IMG/VR virus record: IMGVR_UViG_3300043570_002446
Coordinates: 1 to 22,451 of that record
Direction: 5' to 3' (one strand)
DNA: 22,451 nt
Source of the DNA: a virus
Below, piece after piece: positions 691-12,007 of this stretch (positions are counted from its first letter, which is position 1; every line of letters starts with the position of its first letter). A program made the position numbers and the translations under genes. The notes below the pieces were generated by a model, which did not search any database, was not told the DNA's origin, and saw only the letters and a program-made list of their open reading frames with translations.

Positions 691-1119
691 TTACGTGAGG
701 TATGCGAAACCAGAGAACGCTGATGTAAAGTTTACTACAACTTGAGAGACAGAAACATAGTTGACTTCCCCAAATACAACAGTTTTACCACTATCTACAA
801 TTGAAACAGATGGGTATCCACCCAAAGCATGGTTAATTGTCCATGTAGTAGTAGCCGTACCTTGTGTATGTATGTGACGGATAGATGATGGGTAAACAAG
901 ATTAAGGACTTGGTTTGGAGCAGTACCTGTGATGGTGGCACCTGCCGTACCTGTAGTGACTGTGCCGATACTGAGGGTATTAGGAGGACCAGCAACACCT
1001 GGATCATGCACTTCAAGTACTTGGTCAGCAGGCTCTGTTACGACAGAGACTGACTTCTTCTGTGTAACCGTAACGTACTTGTTCGGTTGCTTGGTTACCT
1101 CAACGGTTGTTGTGCTCAT
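691..1119 (-). CDS. Small phage tail fibre-like protein
   Basis: This 142-residue protein starts at the ATG at 1119, which overlaps the stop of the upstream gene as ATGA. A longer in-frame start at 1173 would lie deep inside the upstream gene and is not favoured. The centre has a Gly/Thr-rich segment with LSIGTVTTGTAGATITGTAP followed by NQVLNL, a pattern seen in phage fibre shafts. The C-terminal 55 residues (TWTINHALGGYPSVSIVDS, then VVFGEVNYVSVSQVVVNFTS) resemble a compact beta-domain common at the ends of phage fibre proteins. It probably forms part of the fibre or baseplate periphery. Overlap with the gene before and a 9-bp gap to the gene after suggest one late operon and translational coupling. 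Confidence 0.7.
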   Translation of the reverse strand: MSTTTVEVTKQPNKYVTVTQKKSVSVVTEPADQVLEVHDPGVAGPPNTLSIGTVTTGTAGATITGTAPNQVLNLVYPSSIRHIHTQGTATTTWTINHALGGYPSVSIVDSGKTVVFGEVNYVSVSQVVVNFTSAFSGFAYLT

Positions 1120-1823
1120 GCAGGCGGTGCAGAGATAGCAGCCTCTACAACGACCGTCCCACTCGCCAAGCAATCCCAGTCTCCAGCGGAGTCCTGAACA
1201 AACAAGTCAAAGTTGTAACTGCCTGAGGACACTGTGTTCTTATCCGAGATGTGCATTTCTAGTGTTCCGCCAGCAATCGGGGCAAGATAACCACGTTGCT
1301 CTACTGGAAGGGCAATAACGGTGGCTTCTGAAGGGGTGGACGCAAACCAACGAAGGTCTAGGACAGTGACACCTGCGGTGTTCTTTGCCTGCATGTAGGC
1401 GTTCTGTACGGTGAGGATGTCTCCATCAGCATCTTTCCATGTGAAAGTGCGACGGAAGTCCACACGTTGCTTAAAGCGGATTTCCATTGCTTGTGAATCC
1501 TCCCACGGAGTAATATTGTCAAGAGCCGATACAACGATTGTACCCTTTGCTACTGGTCTCTGAACTTCATTGATAGTTGCAAGAACATCATAGGCAAGTT
1601 CTCCCAACGGTAGATCCTGGGTTTCTTCGGCACTTAATGACAACATAATGCCATTTGCACTCGTTAAATCAACAGTTAATTCTTTTTTAGACAAGCCAGT
1701 AGTCTGGATAAAAGAACGAGCCTCAGTGGGTTTAATTTGTCTGTGAGTGCGCCTATCCTTGAGGATAATGAGGCGTTCCCATGGAAGCCCACGAGTAATG
1801 TTGTAGTTAACGGTATGGGGCAT
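1116..1823 (-). CDS. Virion structural protein with two tandem beta-domains (baseplate-like)
   Basis: A 235-residue protein that appears internally duplicated. Repeat 1 (about residues 1-108) has TRGLPWERLIILKDRRTHRQ, an LTVDLTSANG strand and LPLGELAYDVLATI. Repeat 2 (about 110-230) has RVDFRRTFTWKDADGDILTV, then TLEMHISDKNTVSSGSYNFD. Each copy follows the order polar strand, 'dkdG' turn, strand, loss-of-conservation loop, 'Y(D/N)(F/V)(L/D)' strand, as in N-terminal domains of phage upper-baseplate proteins (BppU type). That is my structural inference from the strand pattern, not a verified homology. No signal peptide or membrane segment. The start at 1823 has no Shine-Dalgarno but has TAAACT exactly 6 nt upstream, suggesting a leaderless mRNA. 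The stop overlaps the next gene as ATGA. Confidence 0.6.
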   Translation of the reverse strand: MPHTVNYNITRGLPWERLIILKDRRTHRQIKPTEARSFIQTTGLSKKELTVDLTSANGIMLSLSAEETQDLPLGELAYDVLATINEVQRPVAKGTIVVSALDNITPWEDSQAMEIRFKQRVDFRRTFTWKDADGDILTVQNAYMQAKNTAGVTVLDLRWFASTPSEATVIALPVEQRGYLAPIAGGTLEMHISDKNTVSSGSYNFDLFVQDSAGDWDCLASGTVVVEAAISAPPA

Positions 1824-3987: not shown

Positions 3988-4131
3988 TTAATATACCCCT
4001 TCACAGCAAGCATCACGGCTTCCACATTGAGGACAACGGTAGTGGGCATGCTCAGGACGCATGCGAGCACCGCAGTGAACACATTGCTCACTACAGTCGG
4101 CTACTTGAGGACTTGGAGTTTGACTTCCCAT
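3988..4131 (-). CDS. 47-residue zinc-ribbon protein
   Basis: The protein is MGSQTPSPQVADCSEQCVHC followed by GARMRPEHAHYRCPQCGSRD and ACCEGVY. It has a CxxC pair at residues 17-20, a second at 33-36 with the context YRCPQCGSRDACCEG, and a further CC, so it is a small metal-binding ribbon with at least four Cys ligands. The start at 4131 is the only ATG after the in-frame stop upstream; its ribosome-binding site is weak (AGG 5 nt upstream). The N-terminal 10 codons overlap the end of the 52-residue gene in another frame, which suggests coupled translation. Small zinc ribbons of this kind are frequent in phages, often of unknown role. Too short for automatic calling, but the Cys pattern makes it credible. 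Confidence 0.65.
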   Translation of the reverse strand: MGSQTPSPQVADCSEQCVHCGARMRPEHAHYRCPQCGSRDACCEGVY

Positions 4132-4259
4132 GCACCTGTGCCCACAGACTTAATACTAAGTAATATAGACGTTTTGTAGCCATGTGCTTTGGCAAGACGC
4201 ATTGCTTGATCAATGGCATCCTGCATAGATGGAGTGTGTATTGGGTATGTGACAATCAC
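4101..4259 (-). CDS. 52-residue protein of unknown function with leaderless start
   Basis: Starting at GTG (4259) the product reads MIVTYPIHTPSMQDAIDQAM, RLAKAHGYKTSILLSIKSVG, TGAWEVKLQVLK. The predicted pattern is strand, helix (SMQDAIDQAMRLAKAHG), strand, strand (WEVKLQVLK), a complete small alpha/beta fold. I do not recognise a named family. The start is supported by TAAACT placed exactly 6 nt upstream, the same arrangement as at 1823. An ATG at 4226 is a possible internal alternative. The last 31 bp overlap the zinc-ribbon gene. This short gene is supported by codon-like structure and by its promoter, not by a recognised relative. Confidence 0.55.
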   Translation of the reverse strand: MIVTYPIHTPSMQDAIDQAMRLAKAHGYKTSILLSIKSVGTGAWEVKLQVLK

Positions 4260-4275
4260 GGCTATAGTTTACATC
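4260..4275. promoter_or_regulatory. Bidirectional promoter with overlapping -10 hexamers
   Basis: CTATAGTTTA carries TATAGT on the plus strand (4263-4268), ending 7 nt before the ATG of the dioxygenase gene at 4276, and TAAACT on the minus strand (4271-4266), ending 6 nt before the GTG at 4259. Only 16 bp separate two divergent start codons. Both transcripts would be leaderless, and polymerase could occupy only one direction at a time. Confidence 0.55.
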
Positions 4276-5037
4276 ATGGAACTACATGACTTAACTATCC
4301 CAGCCCCAGCCCCAGGACCAGCCGATTGGAATGACGATGGTTTTGTTATTAAGAAAGGCTTTCTTCCAGAGAACCTGTTGGTTGCTTATGAGCAGTGTTG
4401 GATTGAGCATAATGAAGAACGACCTGGTGGTTGGCCTGATTGCACTCCTTACCGTCGTCACCCAGAAGTTATGAATATTTTGACACATCACAACATTAAT
4501 GACACAATGGAACGCTTACTTGGTGAACCAGCGGCTGTTCACTTAAATCTAACTGGTTGGGTTACTACTCGCCGTAATTGGCATCAAGATACATATTTAA
4601 ATCCAGAACACGTTGGTGATTACTACGTTGCAATTTGGATTGCTTTGGAAGACATTCATCCTGATTCTGGTCCTTTTCAGTTTGTGCGAGGGTCACACCG
4701 TTGGCCTGTGGTAACACAAGAAAAGATACTTGCAGCGCTTTCACCAGAAGAACGAGATCATCGTTGGCCTAAACACAGTGAACGCATCTTAACTCCACTG
4801 TTTGAAGCAGAGATTGAGAAGCGTAATGCGGAAGTTGTTACGTACCTTCCAAAACGTGGTGATGTTCTTTTCTGGCATGGTCGCTTAGTACATCGTGGTT
4901 CTGTACCAAATGTTGATGGGATGGTGCGTAAATCGCTAATTGCACACTACTCAGGTATTAATCACAGACAGGACATGCCTACAGCACAGAAGCATGGTGG
5001 TGGCTGGTATTTCCCAATTGATGGAGGAAATGTTTAA
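4276..5037 (+). CDS. Phytanoyl-CoA dioxygenase (PhyH) family 2-oxoglutarate/Fe(II) oxygenase
   Basis: A 253-residue protein. The iron ligands are visible as H103-x-D105 (WHQDTYLNPEH) and a distal His, H206 (FWHGRLVHRGS). An Arg about 12 residues later (R218) is placed to hold 2-oxoglutarate. GPFQFVRGSHRWP (about 132-144) is the characteristic PhyH segment after the first ligand pair. The fold hydroxylates small molecules or amino-acid-type substrates; the substrate cannot be told. The ATG at 4276 is chosen over an upstream in-frame ATG at 4213 because TATAGT ends 7 nt before it (leaderless) and the upstream 21 residues look non-coding. It overlaps the methyltransferase gene by one base (TAATG). 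The pair is a plus-strand island among minus-strand genes, which suggests acquisition as a unit. Such auxiliary enzymes are frequent in aquatic phages. Confidence 0.82.
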   Translation: MELHDLTIPAPAPGPADWNDDGFVIKKGFLPENLLVAYEQCWIEHNEERPGGWPDCTPYRRHPEVMNILTHHNINDTMERLLGEPAAVHLNLTGWVTTRRNWHQDTYLNPEHVGDYYVAIWIALEDIHPDSGPFQFVRGSHRWPVVTQEKILAALSPEERDHRWPKHSERILTPLFEAEIEKRNAEVVTYLPKRGDVLFWHGRLVHRGSVPNVDGMVRKSLIAHYSGINHRQDMPTAQKHGGGWYFPIDGGNV

Positions 5038-5618
5038 TGAAACTTTTAAATGTTGGTTGTGGAACACATTACGCACAAGGTTGGGTAAACGCAGACACAT
5101 GGGAAACAGAAGATACTAAACCAGACGTCAAGGTAACTCCTGGTCAACCGTACCCTTTTGAAGACAACACATTTGATGCCATATACATGGGACATGTACT
5201 GGAACACATTCCATGGCTAGAAGTATCTACATTCCTTAAAGATATGCAGCGTATTGCTAAACCCAATGCACCAATGCTTGTTGTTGGGCCAGACGTTCAT
5301 AAAACTATTAAGCGATGGAAAGAAGGACAAGAGCCATGGTGGATGGTGGAGTCAGTTATGGAACACCTAGATGTTCCTAGCACCCATGTTCCTGGTTTGG
5401 AATGGTGGGATGGGGCACACCATCATTGGAATTGCCATGAGGCACGAGTTGAAAAGTTATTGAACTCATTGGAATTTAATAAAATTGTCAACGTATTTGA
5501 TGCAATACCTAATGATCCAGAAGGTAAGGCATGGTTTGATGAAAAGAACCAAATTGAATGGCCTGTTGTAGGTAAATACTTTTGGCAACTAGCCTTTAGT
5601 TGTAAAAATATTAGTTAA
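5037..5618 (+). CDS. Class I SAM-dependent methyltransferase (type 11)
   Basis: A 193-residue protein. Motif I is LLNVGCGTHYAQGW at the N-terminus (SAM glycine loop at NVGCGT, residues 5-10), with an acidic residue after the second strand (VNADTW). The post-motif stretch FDAIYMGHVLEHI (about 47-59) is typical of Methyltransf_11 members acting on small molecules or sugars. It begins on the stop of the dioxygenase gene (TAATG), with GGAGG about 9 nt upstream inside that gene, so the two are translationally coupled. The pair may modify the same substrate, possibly a glycan or surface molecule; that is inference. It ends 6 bp from the convergent holin-like gene. Confidence 0.8.
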   Translation: MKLLNVGCGTHYAQGWVNADTWETEDTKPDVKVTPGQPYPFEDNTFDAIYMGHVLEHIPWLEVSTFLKDMQRIAKPNAPMLVVGPDVHKTIKRWKEGQEPWWMVESVMEHLDVPSTHVPGLEWWDGAHHHWNCHEARVEKLLNSLEFNKIVNVFDAIPNDPEGKAWFDEKNQIEWPVVGKYFWQLAFSCKNIS

Positions 5619-5624
5619 TACTAA

Positions 5625-5906
5625 CTATTCCTCGTTATCAGGAATTCCGTTACCATCTTTATCTTCGCCATTGCGACCAGTTGAAATCATAAGACCTGCA
5701 AGAGTTCCAGTGATGAATGTTGCAACTGATGACAAGACACCAAAGAACATCTTGTCATTTTCGGCTTGAGCGCCAATTGGCTGTGTAACAAACACAAGTG
5801 CCCAAAGAACGCCGATGGTTGTAATCATAAGAACGAACCCAAGCATGCAACCAATAACAAACTTAAGGCGTGCATCTAGTTCTGCTGGTGTCAAACGCTT
5901 TTTCAT
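5625..5906 (-). CDS. Two-helix membrane protein, holin-like
   Basis: A 93-residue protein with a basic, polar head (MKKRLTPAELDARLK), a first membrane segment at about residues 16-40 and a second at about 53-75 (MFFGVLSSVATFITGTLAGL), and an acidic tail GEDKDGNGIPDNEE. The tail resembles a calcium-binding DxDxDG loop (DKDGNGIPD). Two membrane segments with a charged tail suit a holin. Its start overlaps the lipoprotein stop (ATGA), so the two are made together, as in lysis cassettes. No endolysin gene is seen nearby, which weakens the lysis reading. Confidence 0.65.
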   Translation of the reverse strand: MKKRLTPAELDARLKFVIGCMLGFVLMITTIGVLWALVFVTQPIGAQAENDKMFFGVLSSVATFITGTLAGLMISTGRNGEDKDGNGIPDNEE

Positions 5907-6579: not shown

Positions 6580-6972
6580 GTCAGAAAGATCATCGTTGGG
6601 TGAAGCGTACTTTACTGGAATCTCCATTTTTGGATCAATACTGTTTGCTACAGAGATGCGATGATGCCCGTCTTCAATAACAGGACCCTCATAGTTTGCT
6701 CCTGGAAAGTAGTCATAGACACGACCAGAACGAACACGCATAGGGTGTTGTCCTATGGTGATAGGCGTTTGTACGCCCTCACTTTTAATTTCATTGTACA
6801 AGCCGTCCCGTTTTGCTTCTTTTATTTTACGAGAAGCCACGTCAGGAAGATTCCGTAATGTAAGGGGCCTTCTTGAAGCGGGTTGGTCTAGTGGGATTGC
6901 ATCCATCAGGTCTTTTGCAGGGATGAACATTGCCAGTTGATCTTCGTTAAGGACGTGCTTCTTTTTAGCCAT
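6577..6972 (-). CDS. ParB-like nuclease-fold protein with a putative sliding-clamp motif
   Basis: 131 residues. The C-terminal half has the ParB/Sulfiredoxin-type core: a VQTPITIG strand (about 67-74) and VIEDGHHRISVANSIDP (about 98-114), the DGHHR being the family's catalytic or nucleotide-binding box. The N-terminus KHVLNEDQLAMF contains QLAMF (12-16), close to the bacterial beta-clamp pentapeptide QL(S/D)LF, and an LNxxQ(F/L) motif shared with neighbouring genes. ParB-like proteins in phages may be nucleases, CTP switches or modulators. No helix-turn-helix DNA-binding domain is present, so this is not a partition ParB. The start overlaps the upstream stop (TAATG). Confidence 0.72.
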   Translation of the reverse strand: MAKKKHVLNEDQLAMFIPAKDLMDAIPLDQPASRRPLTLRNLPDVASRKIKEAKRDGLYNEIKSEGVQTPITIGQHPMRVRSGRVYDYFPGANYEGPVIEDGHHRISVANSIDPKMEIPVKYASPNDDLSD

Positions 6973-7412
6973 TACCTGGTGTTCCTTGTATAAAAGTTAT
7001 CGCCAATGCCTTCTTGTGTCACTGATGGGTTGTTAGCCCAACCAACGATCTTTTCTGGTTTTACCTTACTTTTAGATATAGCGGTGTCCTTAGTATTATC
7101 ATTTACATGGTCTCGGGGTATTAGATCTTTGAGCATAGTAAAGGATTCGGATGGTACTTCATACACTGGAGCAAATAACATCCCTGCTCTTTCTGCTTTA
7201 CTGGCGGCTTTAGATGCCGCACGGTCATAGGAGGTAGAAGCGCTAACAGTATCTTTATCAGCCCAATCTTCTTTTAGTTCTGGACGAGGATAATTACCAT
7301 CTATTTTAAAGTAGTTTTGTTTGCTTTTTGCTGGGTCAATCATTTCCTCATCAGCAAAGATGTGTGCAGTTCCATGAAACAACTTAGGATTAAGGTGTTC
7401 TGAGGCTGCCAT
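6972..7412 (-). CDS. ADP-ribosyltransferase-like protein (Arr-type fold), tentative
   Basis: 146 residues beginning MAASEHLNPKLFHGTAHIFA. LFHGT (11-15, with H13) followed by an acidic, Pro-containing loop (DEEMIDPAKS), then TVSASTSYDRAASKAASKAE (55-74) and MLFAPVYEVPSES (78-90), gives the order seen in rifampin ADP-ribosyltransferases: F(Y/H)HGT, a 'vyls.t.d.A...a' strand-helix, then a 'vYeV.p' strand. The similarity is by motif order only. The substrate could be a host protein. It overlaps the genes on both sides (TAATG), giving a tightly coupled set of three effector-like genes. Confidence 0.5.
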   Translation of the reverse strand: MAASEHLNPKLFHGTAHIFADEEMIDPAKSKQNYFKIDGNYPRPELKEDWADKDTVSASTSYDRAASKAASKAERAGMLFAPVYEVPSESFTMLKDLIPRDHVNDNTKDTAISKSKVKPEKIVGWANNPSVTQEGIGDNFYTRNTR

Positions 7413-8369: not shown

Positions 8370-8771
8370 TTATGCCCTACCCCGTATGCGTGGGGTGAAC
8401 TTGTGCTCTTTGACAACATTAGAATTATAATTAGTGTCGTATGCCCCAATGATGTGTACTGGGGTTCCAGGGCGCAAAGGTACTTCATTTTCTGCTTCGT
8501 AAGATCCCTCACCTGTATTAGACCACTCTTCATGTTCTTCTGAGCCTGGTTCCATAATATGTCTCTTATGCACTAAACCAGTAAGAACAGTACCTACAAC
8601 GTCGTCATTAAGTCCTGCAAAGTGGTCTGCCCATCCCGCATCGTCATCACCGACCCAATGCACACCCAAGTTACTCGTGTCTACCTCATTGTGCTGCACT
8701 CCCCCAAAGCCACGATGTAGGCGCACATACTTACCTGATTGGTCTTTATTAATATGTTCGTGGGCAGCCAT
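8370..8771 (-). CDS. ADP-ribosyltransferase-like protein with ExE motif, tentative
   Basis: 133 residues beginning MAAHEHINKDQSGKYVRLHR. KYVRLHRG (R20), then LGVHWVGDDDAGWADHFAG (35-53), then TVLTGLVHKRHIMEP, and finally YEAENEVPLRPGTPVHIIGA (91-110) follow the R-S-ExE order; E92-A-E94 or E94-N-E96 would be the catalytic pair. The middle Ser of the S(T/S) motif is replaced by HWV, so activity is uncertain. The fold assignment is by motif order and length. It follows the 97-residue gene by 3 nt and shares the MAAHE(H/N)(L/I)N opening with it. Confidence 0.52.
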   Translation of the reverse strand: MAAHEHINKDQSGKYVRLHRGFGGVQHNEVDTSNLGVHWVGDDDAGWADHFAGLNDDVVGTVLTGLVHKRHIMEPGSEEHEEWSNTGEGSYEAENEVPLRPGTPVHIIGAYDTNYNSNVVKEHKFTPRIRGRA

Positions 8772-8774
8772 TAT

Positions 8775-9068
8775 TTAGTTGTTCCATGATGCGTAGTTGC
8801 GTCTTGCTCTTTTTCTATCTTTAAAACCTTGATTAATGAGTATTTGCTTAGGAACATCAGATGATGGATTAGCAAGGTGCTCGTCAACCATCAACTTAGC
8901 CTGTTCCCGTCCTTCCCCTAGAAGTTGCATAGGTGATACTAGATTACCAACATCGTTCTGCCAAGTTGCAATGCCATCTGCCCAGTTGCGTGCGTAGGAT
9001 TCACGTAAACGTGGATAAGGATGCTGTATATCAAACTGTCCTTCGTTGAGGTTTTCATGTGCAGCCAT
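8775..9068 (-). CDS. Unknown 97-residue protein with MAAHENLNEGQF opening
   Basis: The protein starts MAAHENLNEGQFDIQHPYPR and continues with Trp- and Arg-rich amphipathic segments (RESYARNWADGIATWQNDVG) and a basic C-terminal part (KDRKRARRNYASWNN). No domain is recognised. The opening is nearly the same as in the gene that follows it. It may be a virion-delivered or internal protein that shares a loading signal with its neighbours; this is inference. TATAAT lies exactly 6 nt before its ATG. Confidence 0.62.
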   Translation of the reverse strand: MAAHENLNEGQFDIQHPYPRLRESYARNWADGIATWQNDVGNLVSPMQLLGEGREQAKLMVDEHLANPSSDVPKQILINQGFKDRKRARRNYASWNN

Positions 9069-10599: not shown

Positions 10600-10956
10600 C
10601 TAGTCTTCGTTGTCATGGTTGGGTTCGTAGGATGTTCTTCTGTAGTACTTGTCCTCAAACTGTTCAGCCAAATGGGTAGCGGCTGGATGGATAGTTAACC
10701 CCCAATTTATAGAAGATTTAGGATAGCGGTCATACAAATGTTGCATAAGCGCTTTAGCGTGACCCTTTCCTTCCTGATGGCTTTTTAGGTAATCAATGTC
10801 AATTTGAGAATTACCGTCATCATTGGTGTGATTTTCAAAAGAAACCCGAGCGAGATGGTTGCTATCCCTGTTGGACAATGTCAGGGCATGGTATCCAGGA
10901 CCTAGTTTGTCATGGGTTACACGAAACTGTTGACTGAGGTGCTCCGATGATGCCAT
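10600..10956 (-). CDS. GNAT-type N-acetyltransferase-like protein
   Basis: 118 residues opening MASSEHLSQQFRVTHDKLGP. The core has RVSFENH (strand), QIDIDYLKSHQEGKGHAKAL (51-70) and a following helix with YPKSSINWGLTIHPAATHLAEQF. QEGKGHA (61-67) matches GNAT motif A, (Q/R)xxGxG/A, which binds the pyrophosphate of acetyl-CoA. The length is near the minimum for the fold, and the N-terminus carries the EHLSxQF motif of the effector-like locus. The substrate is unknown; a protein or small-molecule amine is usual. It is the first gene of the minus-strand block, read away from the origin-like region. Confidence 0.68.
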   Translation of the reverse strand: MASSEHLSQQFRVTHDKLGPGYHALTLSNRDSNHLARVSFENHTNDDGNSQIDIDYLKSHQEGKGHAKALMQHLYDRYPKSSINWGLTIHPAATHLAEQFEDKYYRRTSYEPNHDNED

Positions 10957-10968
10957 TCATTCAGTATA
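10957..10968 (-). promoter_or_regulatory. Leaderless promoter: -10 TATACT 6 nt before the ATG
   Basis: Minus-strand TATACT (10968-10963), GAATGA, then the ATG at 10956. It sits at the edge of the non-coding region. Confidence 0.55.
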
Positions 10969-11023
10969 GGGCTATTTGGGCGAGTTGGGTGGTCAGTCGG
11001 ATTTTGGAATGGGGCTATTTGGG
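10969..11023 (+). repeat. Direct repeat GGGCTATTTGGG, two copies
   Basis: Exact copies at 10969-10980 and 11012-11023, 43 bp apart, just upstream of the DnaA boxes. Possibly protein-binding sites near the divergent promoters. Confidence 0.6.
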
Positions 11024-11066
11024 TGGAGCCGTTCGGGTGCCAGGTAAAGCCTACCCCCAAACATAT

Positions 11067-11204
11067 GTTCGCCCCTCACTTAACCATGGGGGGTTATCCA
11101 CAGCCCTCGCCATCACCCATAAGGCTTTGCTGGGTTATCCACAGGTGCCTGTGTATATGCCTGTGGATATCTGTGGAACATCCTGTGGAACATTGGGGGC
11201 GAAC
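11067..11204. other. DnaA-box cluster bounded by a 9-bp inverted repeat (putative replication origin)
   Basis: Two perfect TTATCCACA boxes lie at 11094-11102 and 11135-11143. Facing them is a phased series of TGTGNANAN-type sites: TGTGTATAT 11150-11158, TGTGGATAT 11162-11170 (reverse complement ATATCCACA, one change from the box), and TGTGGAACA at 11172-11180 and 11184-11192, with starts 12, 10 and 12 bp apart, near one helical turn. GTTCGCCCC (11067-11075) and GGGGCGAAC (11196-11204) form a 9-bp inverted repeat around the cluster. TTATCCACA is the established bacterial DnaA box. An origin using host DnaA, or DnaA-mediated transcription control, is inference. Confidence 0.6.
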
Positions 11205-11214
11205 CCTTGTTCGT

Positions 11215-11246
11215 ATGTGTCGTTCGTCACATGTGTCGTTCGTCAC
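11215..11246 (+). repeat. 16-bp perfect tandem repeat (iteron-like)
   Basis: ATGTGTCGTTCGTCAC occurs at 11215-11230 and immediately again at 11231-11246. A degraded third copy with ATGTGTAACAA and ATTCGTCA follows to about 11278. Iterons next to a DnaA cluster are a classical layout for initiator-protein binding. Confidence 0.75.
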
Positions 11247-11368
11247 ACCATGTGTAACAATCGTGTGACATTCGTCATAATACTTGACAAGGTGCCCACC
11301 CATGTGCCCTCGCTTCCTAATGCGTTCTAAGAGGCGCAGAGGCGTTTTGGCACAATGAGGCGTTCTCA

Positions 11369-11380
11369 GCGTTTAAACGC
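11369..11380. repeat. Perfect 12-bp palindrome GCGTTTAAACGC
   Basis: The palindrome is framed by CTCAG and CTGAG and lies among repeats of GAGGCGTT (11330-11370). A similar CATCCTGA(G/C)GC block recurs near 11533. It may be an operator or part of an origin; it is AT-rich at the centre. Confidence 0.6.
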
Positions 11381-11767
11381 ATCCTGAGGCATCTGAGTGG
11401 CTTAGGAATAGGGCTATAACCCTTGCTGGGTAAGGGGATGCGGGGTATGGGTAGGTGTACAAAGTACCCCACGATCGCCTGTATTGCTATCCACTGCCCC
11501 ATTGCTCCATATCGCTGTACATCGCACCACAGCGCATCCTGACGCTTCTCAGGGCATCTCCTGATCTACCCTCCAATGCCTGTATCTCCTCCTCCATCCG
11601 ATGGATGGCTGTCGCTTGGGGCGCCATATTCCAGCCCCCAGCCCGCTCCAGCCCATGGGGCATGGCTCAAAAGATTCTCAAGAATTATTCAATTGCCTAT
11701 TGACAGATGTACCCTCCATGTGGAAGACTGTTTGTGAAGGCGCTTGTCCCCTTCGGCGGTTCCTTGA

Positions 11768-11823
11768 CAATCGGCTCACACGGCAGGCGGGCTTCGGCTC
11801 GCTCTTTGTCGTTCTGCCGATTG
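11768..11823 (+). ncRNA. Hairpin upstream of the first right-arm cassette
   Basis: CAATCGGC (11768-11775) pairs with GCCGATTG (11816-11823). Inside, GCGGGC (11787-11792), a TTCG loop and GCTCGC (11797-11802) form a UUCG-capped stem. It probably lies in the 5' leader of the right-arm transcript or is a small separate element; no T-run is present. Confidence 0.45.
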
Positions 11824-11877
11824 CTTGGGCGCTCCTTTCCAACTTCAGAATCAAAACATGGTTCAATAAATTCCTCA

Positions 11878-12002
11878 GCGTCACGGGCTTGCTTCGGCTT
11901 GCTCGTGGCGCTCAATGAGGGCTGGAGGTTCTCCCCCGCTTCAGCCCTGATTGAGCGCACCACGCTCCACTGGCTCACTGCCAGTGCAGTCCTGAGGAGG
12001 AC
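11878..12002 (+). ncRNA. Class II structured element + RBS hairpin, cassette 1
   Basis: P1: GCGTCACG (11878-11885) with CGTGGCGC (11904-11911). P2: GCGCTCAAT (11908-11916) with ATTGAGCGC (11950-11958), continued by AGGGCT/AGCCCT. P3: CACTGG (11968-11973) with CCAGTG (11981-11986). P1 and P2 overlap by GCGC, so both cannot be complete at once. The RBS hairpin is GTCCT-GAGG-AGGAC (11989-12002), 5 nt before the ATG at 12008. Confidence 0.65.
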
Positions 12003-12007
12003 ACACC

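Follow-up and report, generated by a model that had tools for sequence, protein, structure and literature searches.

Can the 16 bases between two divergent phage start codons act as the promoter of both genes, and what becomes of such a site when the genes on either side are exchanged? The locus that raises this question lies in a virus record of 22,451 bases, the whole of which was analysed and is referred to here as the window. Read directly from the sequence, positions 4257–4278 are CAC GGCTATAGTTTACATC ATG, in which CAC (4257–4259) is the complement of the GTG that starts the minus-strand ORF at 4101–4259, and ATG (4276–4278) starts the plus-strand gene. This confirms the description given in the first-pass annotation, which placed overlapping -10 boxes, TATAGT on the plus strand and TAAACT on the minus strand, within 16 bases between divergent starts. 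The features of the locus are as follows.

3988–4131, minus strand: 47-aa zinc-ribbon-like gene that overlaps the 52-aa gene at the latter's 3' end; its matches lie below the Pfam cut-offs
4101–4259, minus strand: 52-aa gene beginning with GTG; the fold is predicted as beta-alpha-beta-beta (mean pLDDT 94)
4260–4275: 16 bases separating the two start codons, the entire putative intergenic promoter region
4263–4268, plus strand: -10 box TATAGT, 7 nt upstream of the ATG at 4276; identical in 9 of 9 core-holding loci
4265–4270, plus strand: second, alternative -10 box TAGTTT, 5 nt before the ATG
4266–4271, minus strand: -10 box TAAACT, 6 nt upstream of the GTG at 4259; belongs to the recurrent TGANGTARACT class
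4263–4276: conserved core TATAGTTTACATCA (reverse TGATGTAAACTATA), whose final A is also the first base of the dioxygenase ATG
4276–5037, plus strand: PhyH-family (phytanoyl-CoA dioxygenase-like) gene, 253 aa (PF05721, E 1.9e-18)
5037–5618, plus strand: SAM-dependent methyltransferase gene (PF08241, E 3.4e-8), the right end of the cargo island
5625–5906, minus strand: gene convergent with the island and marking its right border, from the gene calls

The dioxygenase is the first gene of a plus-strand cargo island, and its stop is overlapped by the start of the methyltransferase gene; the two are probably read from one leaderless mRNA. Since a minus-strand gene ends at 5625, these two plus-strand genes stand as an island among minus-strand genes. 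Both are accessory genes that are variably present at one place among relatives, in the manner of phage morons. A fold search with the 52-aa protein returned no match at E 0.001 or better. The dioxygenase family of phages is represented by 54 IMG/VR loci, and no match to the dioxygenase was found among 50,697 phage records. Its cellular relatives (14 loci, at most 54% identity) come from Chloroflexi, Alphaproteobacteria, a cyanobacterium and others; as 0 of the 14 are actinobacterial, they proved uninformative for host inference.

Both start codons are supported by homologues: those of the 52-aa protein in L065, L066 and L228–L232 begin at the same residue, with ATG, and dioxygenases of other phages begin at the equivalent position. 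An in-frame stop within TAAACT makes an upstream extension of the minus-strand ORF impossible. In the gap, CTATAGTTTA occupies 4262–4271, and the TATAGT and TAAACT boxes overlap by three bases (4266–4268). Together with A4271, the alternative box TAGTTT forms TAGTTTA (4265–4271), a symmetric TANNNTA in which the reciprocal -7T and -11A are present at the window and retained in relatives. The first T of TANNNT lies 13 nt upstream of the plus-strand start codon and 12 nt upstream of the minus-strand one, as in TA-led genes. No Shine-Dalgarno sequence was found at the two starts of the window, the best match to AGGAGG having 2 of 6 bases on the plus side and 4 of 6 on the minus side (ATGATG, at 12 nt). 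By arithmetic on the aligned loci, the predicted starts are 17 bp apart in the window and 18 bp apart in L228–L230. A T at -18 is absent from the window (for the plus start the base at 4258 is A, and the minus strand likewise has A at 4277), and, on our reading of the alignment, it is present in L228–L230 with their 18-bp separation.

Such short boxes could be no more than AT-rich intergenic DNA that happens to resemble -10 elements, and a sigma-70 consensus scan lends this some weight: it listed neither direction at the site, and full sites in the region came to the number expected by chance. The scan missed the site because there are no -35 matches; no -35 is conserved on either side across nine aligned loci, and 67 leaderless starts show a weak TTNAMA-like trend at 17-nt spacing. 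A second point in favour of chance is the distant relative L040 (5930–6010), which keeps the divergent 52-aa/dioxygenase pair across an 18-nt gap and has lost both boxes along with the window core. The boxes there are TATACT (plus strand, 12 nt before an ATG) and TAGAAT (minus strand, 8 nt before an ATG), two bases apart, so the core is not indispensable for this gene pair; the L040 site perhaps belongs to a class of bidirectional promoters with roughly 10-bp spacing. What speaks against chance is the positional enrichment of TANNNT before starts, the placing of the longer minus-strand motif and the conservation of the core far above that of synonymous sites, each of which is described below. 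Chance resemblance is accordingly an explanation that we regard as hardly credible.

The enrichment was measured on genes called with a simple codon-score program, not a published caller, in 31 pieces, namely the window and 30 from six related contigs. Of 409 starts with an upstream gap of at least 15 nt, 44 have TANNNT at gap 6, compared with about 6 at each position elsewhere, and gap 7 is less frequent than gap 6, with 15; starts with shorter upstream gaps have it at gap 6 in 15 of 386. In the window itself it lies 6 nt before 5 of 41 starts, where 0.33 would be expected per position (background about 0.8% per position; P 2e-5). The gap-6 excess recurs in relatives G003 (P 7e-6), G001 (9e-5), G004 (4e-8) and G006 (1e-6), is weaker in G005 (2e-3) and is not significant in G010 (0.22); G001, G003 and G004 have orthologues in common, so that their P values are not independent. 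Because TANNNT is enriched 6 nt before starts, leaderless starts are, to judge from sequence, the normal mode in the window phage and in most of the relatives examined. The proposal that both transcripts start on their start codons is thus supported as the usual practice of the group. Leaderless TANNNT genes are common in actinobacteria (PMC3160421, PMC3898074). The terminase of relative G003 has 46–47% identity to six Streptomyces phage records (6 of 8 records matched), which makes Streptomyces phages the nearest cultivated relatives by this gene, and the phage host is probably an actinobacterium.

TAAACT is the commonest hexamer at these starts (11 of 67 leaderless starts with gap 6 or 7). 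G precedes 9 of the 11 matches, and GTAAACT recurs 6 nt before other gene starts, in the window (1116–1823, minus strand) and in related pieces. This recurrence suggests a phage promoter class separate from the CTATAAT/CTATACT starts such as those at 8775 and 10600. The longer form TGANGTARACT occurs eight times in the 31 pieces, both strands included, and 8 of 8 occurrences lie exactly 6 nt before an ATG or GTG. Four are the window locus in near relatives; the other four precede other genes, three of which look orthologous (L070, L076, L077 and L082).

The core is retained while its neighbours change. In nine aligned loci from distinct relatives, TATAGTTTACATC and the A that follows it carry 0 or 1 changes. 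The conserved unit thus comprises the 14 bases 4263–4276 and is smaller than the 16-base gap. Six haplotypes of the 52-aa gene provide the yardstick: pairs of them differ at 4/25 to 13/22 of fourfold-degenerate sites (16–59%), and at 9/25 to 13/22 when compared with the window (lowest ratios 8/22 and 9/25), against 0 or 1 difference in the 13-base core. The three gap bases outside the core vary among these haplotypes. Their one core change, T4269 to C (L004/L060), affects an N of the minus-strand TANNNT and leaves the plus-strand TATAGT untouched.

Four gene-pair contexts surround this core. The first is that of the window, 52-aa gene and dioxygenase. In the second (L059, L062–L064) the 52-aa gene and core are kept and the plus-strand gene is a methyltransferase, which in the L062 and L063 records is 57% identical to that of the window. 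In the third (L229) a methyltransferase lies on one side and an MSNEHLN gene (118 aa) on the other, and in the fourth (L228, L230) the core, with one change in L230, lies between MAKEHLN genes and a 231-aa gene that starts 22–23 nt further on and has an AGGAG Shine-Dalgarno sequence. In L228–L230 the 52-aa gene lies further down the operon, where it overlaps the gene before it. All contexts have an A directly after the core, 7 nt past TATAGT; in the window this A belongs to the ATG, and elsewhere it opens a leader that is 1, 2 or about 23 nt long. That both -10 boxes are kept where both flanking genes have been replaced supports the earlier proposal of a bidirectional promoter. The locus was also said to mark the left border of the enzyme island, and this holds because relatives carry different cargo from exactly this point.

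The exchange of both flanking genes at the edges of the core could also be read as the mark of a recombination or insertion site, or of an operator for a phage regulator, in which the promoter-like appearance would be secondary. The motif, however, lies at the same 6-nt distance from starts at loci where no cargo is docked, and we consider this explanation very improbable.

A different objection is that the promoter works in one direction, the minus-strand TAAACT being functional and the plus-strand TATAGT a by-product of it, with the cargo read from elsewhere or barely at all. TGANGTARACT is indeed used at L070, L076, L077 and L082 with no called gene on the reverse side, and L070 has a reverse TATAGT as well. 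Against this, the dioxygenase has no Shine-Dalgarno sequence, and any -35 element would fall within the 52-aa coding sequence. The cargo of four contexts begins 0–23 nt from the same conserved A, in two of them with a proper Shine-Dalgarno sequence. Dioxygenases elsewhere also have their own TANNNT 6–7 nt before the start. When 33 distinct dioxygenase upstream regions were compared, 14 had no abutting same-strand gene, and TANNNT was found 5–8 nt before the start in 8 of these 14 vs 3 of the 19 abutted ones; the boxes of the non-abutted genes appear to lend independent support to the plus direction. A one-way promoter is therefore unlikely in our judgement.

We consider it likely that 4263–4276 is a compact, bidirectional, -10-only leaderless late promoter, with antisense cargo docked on its reverse side. 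The most economical view is of a leaderless promoter with a native direction for the resident gene and a reverse direction for the cargo. Under this model, the minus-strand reading (TGATGTAAACT, 6 nt, GTG) would represent the leaderless promoter class of the phage group, recognised via the -10 box with little or no contribution from a -35. Because TAAACTATA is nearly symmetric and gives TATAGT on the plus strand, RNA polymerase could also bind the opposite way, and the reverse-bound enzyme would initiate 7 nt downstream, on the conserved A. This reverse start is where antisense cargo, here the dioxygenase and methyltransferase, would have docked. We infer that initiation takes place in both directions, at 4276 (plus strand) and 4259 (minus strand), with a single polymerase occupying the site at any one time.

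The first-pass annotation had further claimed that the two directions exclude each other, which, from the overlap of the boxes, would be a steric expectation. At bidirectional promoters, opposing polymerases are reported to be unable to bind together (PMC12825309). In the accessible text of that source, basal activity is low at all tested bidirectional promoters, and losing one direction gives no substantial gain in the other, so mutual exclusion is not a demonstrated switch.

Whether the late-promoter class (TGANGTAAACT, leaderless) is inherently two-way, its backward firing having been captured repeatedly by docked antisense cargo, is a broader proposition on which we are evenly divided. If true, one 14-bp element would start resident late genes and drive whatever cargo is present, with leaders of 0 to 23 nt, and the stable unit would be the element, not the genes.

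The arrangement is rare in the collections searched. Two exact-pattern scans of IMG/VR for the core adjoining a start codon gave 20 and 112 stretches. Among 130 start-adjacent core matches examined there, 23 had an ORF of at least 40 aa; an opposing ATG ORF accompanied 12 of the 23, and all 12 belong to the window phage group. Another IMG/VR pattern, CAYNNNTATAGTNTACATC, was rejected, almost all of the matches listed being due to chance: at 121 places examined from the matches listed, ORFs of at least 30 aa started on both sides in five, two of which are the window family. Among 61 divergent pairs in 85 related pieces, a count in which the caller missed some copies of the locus, the 52-aa gene being short, TANNNT 5–8 nt before both starts less than 40 nt apart was found at the window locus only. 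None of the 162 divergent pairs of the 1.12-Mb Rhodococcus plasmid pRHL1 (56 pieces) had a double TANNNT within less than 40 nt, so the arrangement is not common in this sample. One pRHL1 pair had TANNNT before both starts at 85 nt, and the leaderless signal of the plasmid is clear (19/857 at gap 6 and 15/857 at gap 7). In 119 other viral loci, the 28 divergent pairs included one unrelated double case (29 nt) and one copy of the window locus.

Other features of the window were observed alongside this locus. At 12 plus-strand starts, the GAGG of the Shine-Dalgarno sequence is the tetraloop of a hairpin that has a 5-bp stem (with G-T pairs permitted) and lies 2–5 nt before the ATG, its sequence being GACCT-GAGG-AGGTC or a variant of this.

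12008, 12444, 12799, 13225, 13697, 14201, 15841, 17076, 18795, 19103, 19846 and 21322, plus strand: starts with the GAGG hairpin upstream

The outer stem shows compensatory changes (GC, TA, AT and CG at pair 5; AT, TA and GC at pair 4), and across the 31 pieces the full stem accompanies 36 of 188 GAGG near starts vs 78 of 3189 GAGG overall. It looks like a repeated start-associated RNA hairpin. Cluster K mycobacteriophages have start-associated sequences, to which the hairpin is perhaps akin in role. Four minus-strand proteins (6972–7412, 8370–8771, 8775–9068 and 10600–10956) are otherwise different and have a common N-terminus, MAxxEHLN/ENLN/EHIN, to which MAKEHLN in L228 and L230 and MSNEHLN in L229 are related. 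A loose EHLN-type pattern near the N-terminus was found in 8 called genes of the 31 pieces vs 1 of 805 at an internal control position; a role as a tag for packaging or targeting is conceivable. No gene was called in about 1 kb (10957–12007) separating the divergent minus and plus arms, a stretch that is likely to have a major regulatory role.

Bidirectional promoters with symmetric -10 elements have been described by Warman, Grainger and co-workers, with divergent starts 7–25 bp apart and an optimum of 18 (PMC10268837); a T at -18 is frequent in them and not obligatory (PMC10268837, PMC12825309). The window site is like these promoters in that near-symmetric -10 boxes on opposite strands overlap, the predicted starts are 17–18 bp apart, no -35 is needed and one polymerase at a time is expected. 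It is unlike them, as far as the accessible text of those papers goes, in that the start codons are the predicted transcription starts, so that the promoter is the whole gap between the coding regions, and in that the reverse side carries exchangeable phage cargo. TA-led leaderless genes of Actinobacteria have TANNNT about 12 bp upstream, no Shine-Dalgarno sequence and an ATG or GTG start (Zheng 2011, PMC3160421; Cortes 2013, PMC3898074). The window matches them in TANNNT distance, in the lack of a Shine-Dalgarno sequence and in its ATG and GTG starts, and, unlike these genes as they are presented there, its two divergent leaderless starts would use one box region. For Mycobacterium tuberculosis lysG/lysE, a divergent actinobacterial pair with overlapping promoter elements and one leaderless lysE start, the available account gives a 108-bp intergenic region, a LysR-type regulator and an inverted repeat, unlike the 16-nt gap of the window (PMC5648196). 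Cortes 2013 reports prpD and its regulator as a divergent pair of leaderless genes and regards divergent promoters in close juxtaposition as common; the accessible part of that paper has no description of -10 boxes that overlap within a 16-nt gap (PMC3898074). Corynebacterium glutamicum crtR/crtE was rejected as a parallel, as its gap is 200 bp and the boxes do not overlap in the available description (PMC5401885).

A leaderless bidirectional phage promoter was not found in searches of the open-licence literature. Phage morons are extra genes on the opposite strand that vary between relatives and have their own promoter and terminator. The window cargo is like morons in consisting of extra opposite-strand genes that vary between relatives, and unlike them in that its putative promoter is common to the resident late genes, here the 52-aa gene, and not private; no terminator-like site was listed between 5618 and 5625. 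Bidirectional promoters are reported to be widespread, and the locus bears on how selection treats their backward transcripts. A natural series of relatives in which one minimal promoter is kept and the genes on both sides are swapped offers a direct test of whether new genes capture backward firing. The promoter, both predicted 5' ends and the intergenic region being the same 16 bases, polymerase competition is also testable without leader effects. Set against the known systems, what would be new here is the combination of two leaderless directions, a promoter that fills the entire gap, and cargo that is exchanged at the reverse start.
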